DNA of 64,000 nucleotides, from assembly GCA_905160935.1 (NCBI GenBank), contig CAJHZI010000638.1, forward strand, positions 94,752-158,751, written 5' to 3'. The translations under genes and the position numbers were made by a program. Below the pieces are notes generated by a model. It was not told the DNA's origin. It saw only the letters and a program-made list of their open reading frames with translations, and made no database searches. The stretch is from Enchytraeus crypticus (lineage: Eukaryota > Annelida > Clitellata > Enchytraeida > Enchytraeidae). Shown here one piece after another: positions 20,701 through 23,700 of the stretch (positions within the stretch are counted from its first letter, which is position 1; each line of letters begins with the position of its first letter).

Positions 20701-23700
20701 TAAATGAGTTGGATAGAATGTGTAAATTGCACGATCAGTTTTATACTGCTAATCCTGATACTACCAGTCGAAATATCAGCGACGAGGCCCTAGCCCATCG
20801 AACATTGGAAATTGCTAATGATTCAAGTTTAGATAGTGCGCAGAGAAATATGGCTCAATTAGTGCACCACATCATGAAAAGTAAAGCAAAATTTGGTCTT
20901 GGTCAGTCAAAAAACGTAAAGAGGGGTCCAGCGAAGAGAAAGTAGTTGGACCCTTTGAAGATTTAGCTAGAGAATTACACAAACCGATTCGTCGAAAATT
21001 TGCGAGACGGCAAGTTCACGTGTTTGAAGTTGACGAAATATGGGGAGCGGATTTAGTCGAAATGCAGGAGTGGAGTAAACAAAATGACGGATACAGATAC
21101 ATGTTAAATATAATCGACGTTTTTTCTAAATTTGCTTGGAGTGTTCCGTTGAAAGACAAGAGAGGTGAGACTGTAACGGAAGCTTTCATGTATATTGTAA
21201 AAAATTCTGATAGGTTGCCAAAGTTTTTGTGGGTGGATCAGGGTAAGGAATTTTACAACAAAACCATGGATGTGTGGCTGAAAGAGAATAACATTACTAG
21301 ATACTCGACCTTTGGAGAACACAAATCAGCAGTCGTTGAAAGATTCAACAGAAGTATTAAGGAGAAAATGTGGATGAGGTTTACGGCAGAAAACACCAGA
21401 AATTGGATTGATATGATTGACGATTTAATTTTCGAGTATAATAACACAAAACATTCAACCATAAAAATGACTCCAGCCGAGGCTAGTAAGAAGGAAAACG
21501 AACCGTATATAATTAACAGAAGAAAGTATAGAAATGTAAACAATGATGCAAGCAAATTCAAGGTTGGTGATAGAGTTCGAATTAGTCGGATTAAAGGTGT
21601 GTTTGAAAAGGGATATTTGCCAAATTGGTCTGAGGAGGTTTTCGAAATATTCAAAGTAAAGTATACTTTGCCTGTTACGTATATATTGAAGGATCAGTCA
21701 GGTGAAGAGCTAGAAGGAGGTTTCTACACCGAAGAACTACAGAAAACTAATCAAGAATTATATCGAATTGAAAAGGTTGTACAGCGGAAAAAGATTAAAG
21801 GTGTGGAACACGCATTGGTTAAATGGAGCGGTTACGACAAAAGGTATAATGAATGGATTCCTGTTGCAAATTTACAAAATTTAAAAATTTTATAAAAATT
21901 AATTTTCATTTAAATAATTATCTTGTGTATATAAAATGACAACTACAAACACAAACACTCAATCCAACGTTCAGAAGTTTCAAGATCTTCAGGAAGGAAA
22001 TGACTATACTGTAACAGGACTGAAACCAATAAATGGAAAATACGGTAAATCATATATTTTGTATGTTGTAGAAAATGAGGGTGATGAACCTACAAAAGTA
22101 TGGTCTACAAATAAGATTAATGAATATATTAAAGAAGAAAAATTGGAAAATAAGCCTAAAAGATTTGATTTTATAGTAAGGCAAATCAATTCTGGCAAAT
22201 ATAAATCAATGAAATATGCAGAGATTGCTGGTTTTAACAATGACGGGAATAACGATGATAAAGTCATTTGGTTATAAATATATACAGAGTTTATTTCCAA
22301 ACTATATTTGGTTTGAAGATATTATATGTGTAATATTTAGAATTAATGCATTTATTTACGTACTCTATAATGACCATACGCAAAAGTATGTATTCCATCA
22401 TCTGAAATTACTCTCTTGTCATCATCGGCGCTCAGAGCAATTTTATTTATTTCCTCTGTATACATCTCGTGCAAGTGTGACCTGATGACGTTCATGCTTC
22501 TAATGTGATCTCTTTTCTCAAACAGACAATCTTTGTAATCATCATGTGTTATTGTGTTTTCAACAACATTCTTTTTAACACCTTTGCATTTCTTGTGCTC
22601 TTCATCCGCTAATTTGTAAGAGTACAGCTTTGCTCTCAATCCAACAAATTCCTCAATCTCCTTTCCGCAAGCTTCATCCTTGAACATCCCAATGACTTTC
22701 TTATTAACTCCAGTCTTAATGCCTGATGGGTGATCCTTAGGATATTCACTAGTGTCAAATTTTTGTTCAACATCATCAGAAATGTCTACGAAAAAGTCGT
22801 CCGTCTGTATTTCATACATCAAGGAATCTGTGTCTGTAAACAACAGCTTGGCTTTATCGTCATATTTGGTCTTTATGTAATTGTAGTGAAAGTCGTACAT
22901 AAGAGTTTTACTTAAATCTAATATTGTCATACCGAGATAGATAGGCTTATTGTACATTAGTTTGGTTTTTCTCATATGAACGCCGATGAGATTTTCGTCA
23001 AATATCGTTGTTCGATCATAGTACGGTTTTGCCGCCAGTTTAACTGCCTTTTCTCTATCACACACCAATTTGAAATCTATCCTGTTTTCAATATTTTCCA
23101 TGGTTTTACCAAATACACTGTTATTCATTAGTTTGAAAAAATCTTTCTCAAAATCATTAGCAGCCTTTGTCCTGAGCTGAGTGTTTAAATCAATGTACGT
23201 CTTCAGCCACGGACTTTGCTCAAACTTTATGCCTTTGTGTATTTTAGTAATTTTCATTCCTAAATTTTCGTACAATTTCAAATTTTCATAGTGCACTATG
23301 TACTTTATTTTATCATTCAAATTCGGTATCAGTTTATTCACTTTATTCACTTTCACAATCTCTGGAGCTAGAGGATAGTCATTATGAAGATCGTGCAGCG
23401 CGGACGGATATTCCAAGTCAACTTCTAGGATACAACCTCGACTAATTATACTGCATATTTCCTTCCAGTTCACCAACTCTTCTTCGGTCATCCATTCAAA
23501 CCCGTGTGTGGGTAGGGGCTTACTCATCCCAAAGCCATAAAGGTTGTTACTGTCCAGGTATTTGATATATTTAGAAGGTTCATTGATGCTAAACTTATCG
23601 CCCATGTATTTATTATTTGCTTTTGCATATCTGTTTGATATGGTGCTTACACCGCCTCTTATTCCATGTTTAATCATCAGCAGCATGTCATAATCGCTCA

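Follow-up and report, generated by a model that had tools for sequence, protein, structure and literature searches.

Retroviruses such as HIV use -1 ribosomal slippage, and the sites that serve Gag-Pro-Pol include A AAA AAC and U UUU UUA. Here we describe a Polinton-type element with a comparable arrangement, found in a stretch of 64,000 nucleotides from Enchytraeus crypticus (contig CAJHZI010000638.1); the whole of that stretch is called the window, and all positions refer to it. The element resembles retroviral Gag-Pro-Pol in the type of heptamer, the spacer, the stem, the nearby stop codon and the predicted placing of an enzyme on a structural-type protein. It differs from it in being a DNA transposon or virus, in its carriers, which would be two separate proteins (a phospholipase A2 protein, PLA2, and pX) and not Gag, and in having no reverse transcriptase. 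The element would work like retroviral Gag-Pol, but it is not a member of that group.

Closer relatives offer partial parallels. In the text available to us, a 2024 preprint (PMC11071296) presents, as speculation, slippery sites that KnotInFrame predicts in the Penton ORFs of adintoviruses and in 'Hexon-Adenain (Hexain)' fusions. These adintoviruses are like our element in that -1 frameshifting is proposed for relatives of Polintons, in one case reaching the protease, but the carriers are penton and hexon, and the available text names neither integrase nor PLA2 and describes no conservation test. Sf Maverick 1 and 2, as presented in the accessible part of PMC5803895, have one ORF for an integrase with a chromodomain and a capsid-like ORF that bears PLA2; our element has both ORF types, but in that source they are listed as distinct ORFs, and the word 'frameshift' there concerns errantiviruses. 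The accessible parts of PMC5803895, PMC8363768, PMC12567637, PMC10120064, PMC3671162, PMC4028283 and PMC11089739 do not describe a PLA2-integrase frameshift, and our searches of open-licence papers found no account of Polintons producing their integrase through a conserved -1 frameshift. Metagenome proteins (P0018 and others) have the domain order of the element, with DUF5679, PLA2 and integrase in one protein; unlike the element, they are encoded by a continuous ORF, and the Ser-Lys-Asn (SKN) tail of the PLA2 protein is absent in their 33-row core clade.

Results

The element spans 12623..26726, with no strand assigned, and was delimited by its inverted repeats and flanks. The repeats (12622-13108 and 26241-26727) are 487 nt long and 100% identical, with zero mismatches, and a 6-bp target duplication, GACAAC, flanks the element at 12617-12622 and 26727-26732; the element looks young. 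Terminal inverted repeats with a 6-bp target duplication are characteristic of Polintons/Mavericks, as is the gene set, for which Pfam matches were obtained to rve (E = 9.6e-11), DJR-like, the double jelly-roll capsid protein (6.5e-45), and Pox_A32, the A32-type ATPase (1.3e-6). On the plus strand, the PLA2 gene (20385..20945) encodes a DUF5679 zinc ribbon and a Phospholip_A2_4 domain (1.1e-8 and 1.8e-7), and the integrase frame (20885..21895, stop to stop, -1 relative to PLA2) encodes the rve core and a chromodomain (Chromo, 2.1e-7). The same strand carries a pX-like small virion gene (15137..15709; Adeno_PX, a weak match at 0.0046, below the Pfam cut-off) and an adenain-like protease frame (15676..16158, stop to stop, -1 relative to pX; Peptidase_C5, 0.013, likewise below the cut-off). 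The gene at 17865-18596 had no informative match, and its label, penton, is therefore given by position only. The long minus-strand protein (1274 aa), for which family searches returned only Rho_N and endonuclease VII-like matches, is taken as PolB from its position and length and from a DTDS motif that was recognised by eye and that we presume to indicate PolB. No Gag or reverse transcriptase domain was found among the 12 element ORFs scanned with Pfam.

Exact copies of TATAAAATG stand at seven gene starts on both strands (13601, 15137, 17865, 18941, 20385, 21936 and 26170), the copy at the PLA2 gene occupying 20379..20387 on the plus strand. Four further genes start with a looser AT-rich motif and only the integrase and the protease are without any, as the original prediction had it. 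The motif at the seven starts resembles a late-promoter or start signal common to the element's genes.

That prediction held that the integrase is fused to the PLA2 protein by a -1 frameshift, and the particulars on which it was built were borne out with small corrections. The PLA2 gene begins with an ATG at 20385 and ends in a TAG stop at 20943-20945. The integrase frame opens at 20885 and, as claimed, offers no ATG ahead of the first catalytic Asp, its first ATG being codon 60 (21062); it overlaps the PLA2 gene in the expected -1 phase, by 61 nt and not 60. Within the overlap, at exactly the coordinates proposed (20909..20915, plus strand), the slippery heptamer A AAA AAC lies in the PLA2 phase (TCA AAA AAC). 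The 4081 codons of the element's ORFs contain 29 XXXYYYZ heptamers in phase, of which 16 belong to commonly used types, and A AAA AAC occurs in phase once, at 20909. A candidate stimulatory stem-loop, identified by folding and conservation (20921..20956, plus strand), begins 5 nt after the heptamer and has 12 bp including G-U pairs, with arms at 20921-20932 and 20945-20956. The seven Watson-Crick pairs described earlier (20924-20930 with 20947-20953) are real and form the core of this longer stem, and the PLA2 stop, which had been placed within the loop, sits at its 3' edge. The junction has three features of a eukaryotic -1 programmed ribosomal frameshift site: an in-phase X XXY YYZ heptamer, a structure within 5-9 nt downstream (here at +5) and an overlapping -1 ORF continued by a homologous protein.

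Folding was done with programs that predict simple stems and no pseudoknots. A 60-nt junction fold had a free energy of -19.3 kcal/mol (z -4.5), equalled by 0 of 200 shuffles; over 151 nt the stem was kept in the centroid, the stretch as a whole being unremarkable (z -1.6; 16 of 200 shuffles). The tail of the PLA2 protein is modelled as disordered, with residues 173-186 under pLDDT 50.

The genome from which the window comes (524 Mb in 802 contigs) was surveyed; a first look gave 995 candidates, 120 of which were scored. The loci examined comprise the best-scoring matches of three genome searches (L001-L030, L051-L080 and L091-L094), 20 picked by hand for unusual open frames, missing stops or lower identity (L031-L050), 10 picked by hand for diversity (L081-L090) and 16 drawn from 150 listed protease matches (L095-L110); L046 was placed by string search. 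Among the 30 best loci, 29 have the -1 frame relation and 29 have TCA AAA AAC, and the frame break is also present in families about 66% identical in integrase. Across 89 distinct PLA2-integrase junctions, a count that leaves out repeats of one place (L055, L093, L094) and loci with no PLA2 match (L049, L086), NCA AAA AAC is in phase in 82 (12 clusters at 90% identity). The search for the same overlap, heptamer and stem in related copies, proposed with the original prediction as a check, was in this way answered within the same genome. All junction DNA comes from this one genome. Its copies share ancestry, and for that reason no overall P value is given.

The seven junctions that lack the heptamer have point changes (L019, L043, L047, L052), are in frame (L033, where the run at the heptamer is shortened and PLA2 and integrase form one frame, and L056) or, in L057, read A AAA AAA and then TGA CTA, with the integrase continuing in the same frame. 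The L057 pattern (TGA CTA near 1965) may represent stop-codon readthrough or decay; as a general route to the integrase, readthrough was rejected because the PLA2 and integrase frames differ, L057 being the exception. Small junction deletions join PLA2 and integrase in one frame in L031, L032 and L033, and L056 and L086 represent a separate family in the same genome, which lacks the heptamer and has PLA2 and integrase fused in frame; both copies contain one TAA further downstream. Copy number is very high. Over 160 nt, the junctions of 19 loci (L061-L079) are identical to that of L060, and the junction of L080 is identical to that of L059. The identical junctions in L060-L080 suggest a recent burst.

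Stop codons bracket the site of the shift. A zero-frame stop follows the heptamer by 0-30 nt, at seven different distances, in 80 of the 82 junctions, the exceptions being the in-frame L031 and L032, which are counted within the 82. An integrase-frame stop lies one codon ahead of the heptamer in 24 of the 82 copies, which confines the shift to the heptamer, and in copies of the L009 type the PLA2 stop comes one codon after it, leaving the heptamer as the sole place for the frame change. In 58 of 73 full-length heptamer loci, the -1 integrase frame runs for 300 codons or more before a stop, and no more than 30 nt separate the heptamer from the PLA2 stop. Copies in which the integrase has an ordinary ATG and the heptamer is absent, which had been named as evidence against a frameshift, were sought; among these 58 copies, a Met precedes the first catalytic Asp only in L025 and L038, and in clusters L021 and L034 there is no ATG, CTG, GTG or ACG from the heptamer to that Asp.

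Codon choice at the heptamer stands apart from its surroundings. In the 12 clusters (L031 and L032 omitted from this background), TCA makes up 21% of 121 Ser codons, AAA 63% of 130 Lys codons and AAC 19% of 155 Asn codons, and none of the seven other Lys-Asn pairs is encoded by AAAAAC. Between families, conserved residues are encoded by the same codon in 50-68% of cases. Six families offer 38 stretches in which three conserved residues follow one another, and in none of these are all three codons invariant; TCA AAA AAC, read from the loci directly, with the SKN columns absent from the codon alignment, is identical across the same six. Where GCA (L082) or ACA (L083) precedes AAA AAC, the residue differs and the slippery A is kept. 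By these comparisons, the heptamer looks selected.

The stem is likewise retained. With the folded length chosen by hand for each family (66, 80 or 90 nt), the fold beats 95% of shuffles in 33 of 37 distinct junctions, and the stems of the other four (L022, L042, L045, L087) fail to beat theirs. In an alignment of 22 chosen junctions out of 38 distinct ones, 94.4% of cells are paired; shifting the partner by one column lowers this to 61.8 and 59.9%. Compensatory changes occur at two neighbouring pairs: four sequences have G-C in place of U-A, and two have U-A in place of C-G. Against shuffles, the number of pairs changed on both sides (2) is not unusual (223/500), whereas the number of cells changed on both sides (0/500), the pairing (1/500) and the score (1/500) are. 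Since the arms encode protein in both frames, part of their conservation has another cause. An insertion in L081 and in L088 gives the stem a second complementary stretch.

Related proteins from other genomes bear on the same junction. Of the 120 best integrase relatives, 39 are in-frame DUF5679-PLA2-integrase single ORFs and the rest are separate ORFs; the former make a PLA2-integrase fusion plausible, and their existence meant that a lost base in the window's copy had to be excluded. In a tree of 131 integrases the in-frame label changes about six times, which indicates that the separate and in-frame arrangements replaced each other more than once, the tree giving no direction. Among 174 separate PLA2 proteins, 148 have Lys-Asn in the tail behind an FGLG end, preceded by Ser in 121, Thr in 11, Pro in 6, Leu in 5, Ala in 2 and Lys, Gln and Met in 1 each, a few of these counts being taken at the distal end where the tail is longer (P0143, P0146, P0155, P0249, P0282); all of these residues except Met possess a codon ending in A. 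The PLKN ends of P0143, P0146, P0249 and P0282 are the zero-frame reading of the integrase GPFEE, which confirms the frame relation elsewhere. Ten of the 174 have no recognisable FGLG end, P0278 and P0280 among them having Lys-Asn, and 16 have FGLG and no Lys-Asn. Six of the 16 (P0236, P0279, P0286, P0288, P0291, P0292) have SLN or PLN in the place of SKN, which, read from protein, would fit the alternative heptamer U UUA AAC; neither KN nor LN is found in P0164, P0171, P0173, P0182, P0201, P0246 and P0283. In P0171, P0182 and P0201, again at the protein level, SKQK replaces SKN, and no known heptamer fits. Scans gave no relatives in viral contigs or prokaryote genome contigs, and tblastn gave no PLA2 relatives in phages; a search of plasmids with the integrase gave 9 records, about 31% identical to it, of which 8 carry an IS3 transposase annotation.

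A second site, which the original prediction did not name although it saw that the protease lacks a start motif, may join pX to the protease. The protease frame, in the -1 phase, shares 34 nt with pX, and a candidate heptamer, T TTT TTA (U UUU UUA), lies in the pX phase at 15682..15688 on the plus strand. It is followed after 8 nt by a stem-loop (15697..15729, plus strand; 7 bp, arms 15697-15703 with 15723-15729; -13 kcal/mol, z -2.1 and -2.4) whose loop includes the pX stop (15707-15709). In a sample of 17 junctions, the window's own and 16 others read over 91 nt each, the heptamer is exact in 8, has one more T and is in frame in 3, and differs otherwise in 6 (L100, L102, L103, L108, L109, L110); the stem arms are kept in nearly all.

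Discussion

From the frame relation, the heptamer and stem in divergent copies, the codon choice and the natural in-frame fusions, the integrase of this Polinton family is very probably expressed by programmed -1 ribosomal frameshifting. The slippage itself and its efficiency are what we infer from these patterns. Ribosomes translating the PLA2 mRNA would reach A AAA AAC, where the stem-loop 5-8 nt downstream would hold them; in some passages the ribosome would slip one base back and continue in the integrase frame. A fusion of zinc ribbon, PLA2, integrase and chromodomain would thus be made besides the free PLA2 protein, and the integrase would thereby be attached, at a low fixed ratio, to a particle protein.

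Could the frame break instead have arisen by mutation of one base, or by an error in the homopolymer, within what is truly a single in-frame ORF? There is a run of six A inside the heptamer, many integrase relatives are in-frame fusions, and copies L031-L033, chosen for long open frames, are themselves in frame. Against this, the same break recurs in 29 of the 30 best loci and in the families about 66% identical in integrase, stops on either side confine the shift, and the stem is conserved; as far as sequence can, these observations rule out assembly error or mutation, and we regard this explanation as scarcely credible. It is also improbable, if a little less so, that the integrase is translated separately, from a non-AUG codon, an internal start or a spliced mRNA, with the heptamer incidental. 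Some database integrases (P0021 and P0044, for example) start with M near the junction, but these starts were set by gene callers; the copies share no common ATG (a Met in 2 of the 58 open copies), clusters L021 and L034 are devoid of ATG, CTG, GTG and ACG between heptamer and Asp, the integrase has no TATAAAATG, and separate translation leaves the codon choice and the stem unexplained.

For the protease, a -1 frameshift signal is the weaker second candidate, one that we favour on the sequence features of the site by a modest degree. That ribosomes terminate on the pX stop codon and start again at a nearby ATG, with no frameshift, has a considerable probability, somewhat below even: in the window a protease-frame ATG (15718) lies in the loop, 8 nt beyond the pX stop, and a loop ATG in this frame is found in 5 of the 17 junctions, overlapping the stop in some. 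However, 12 of the 17 have no ATG there, the heptamer is exact in 8, and the stem is kept in nearly all. Moreover, among the 150 listed protease matches, 14 have an open frame of 342 aa (one with a TGA) and one a frame of 344, as expected of pX-protease fusions; the DNA was read for one of these, L098.

Granted frameshifting at the PLA2-integrase junction, its purpose would presumably be to tie the integrase to a particle protein, with delivery in virions. Parvovirus PLA2 acts in the entering particle, and loading of the integrase into virions is for this reason the simplest purpose. A purely quantitative role is possible, if on the doubtful side: frameshifting fixes ratios whatever the partner, so that it might only keep the integrase low, with the attached PLA2 having no role and the integrase not packaged. 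Yet whole lineages (the 39 of the best 120 relatives) keep a one-frame PLA2-integrase fusion, as if attachment itself were kept. Putting both sites together, we tentatively propose, at a confidence just short of even, a double Gag-Pol-like programme in which protease (on pX, through U UUU UUA) and integrase (on PLA2, through A AAA AAC) are low-level -1 extensions of small internal virion proteins, packaged at a fixed ratio, the integrase entering the next cell tied to a membrane-breaching PLA2, and in which lineages repeatedly swap to an in-frame fusion or to another heptamer (SLN/PLN tails, U UUA AAC).

For Polintons, whose particles are still debated, this makes a sharp prediction, namely a PLA2-integrase fusion present at a fixed low ratio. 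Frameshifting would also account for the split genes and odd start positions that gene callers produce for Polinton integrases. If the proposal is true, a lineage of DNA viruses and the retroviruses share one solution for loading integrase and protease.
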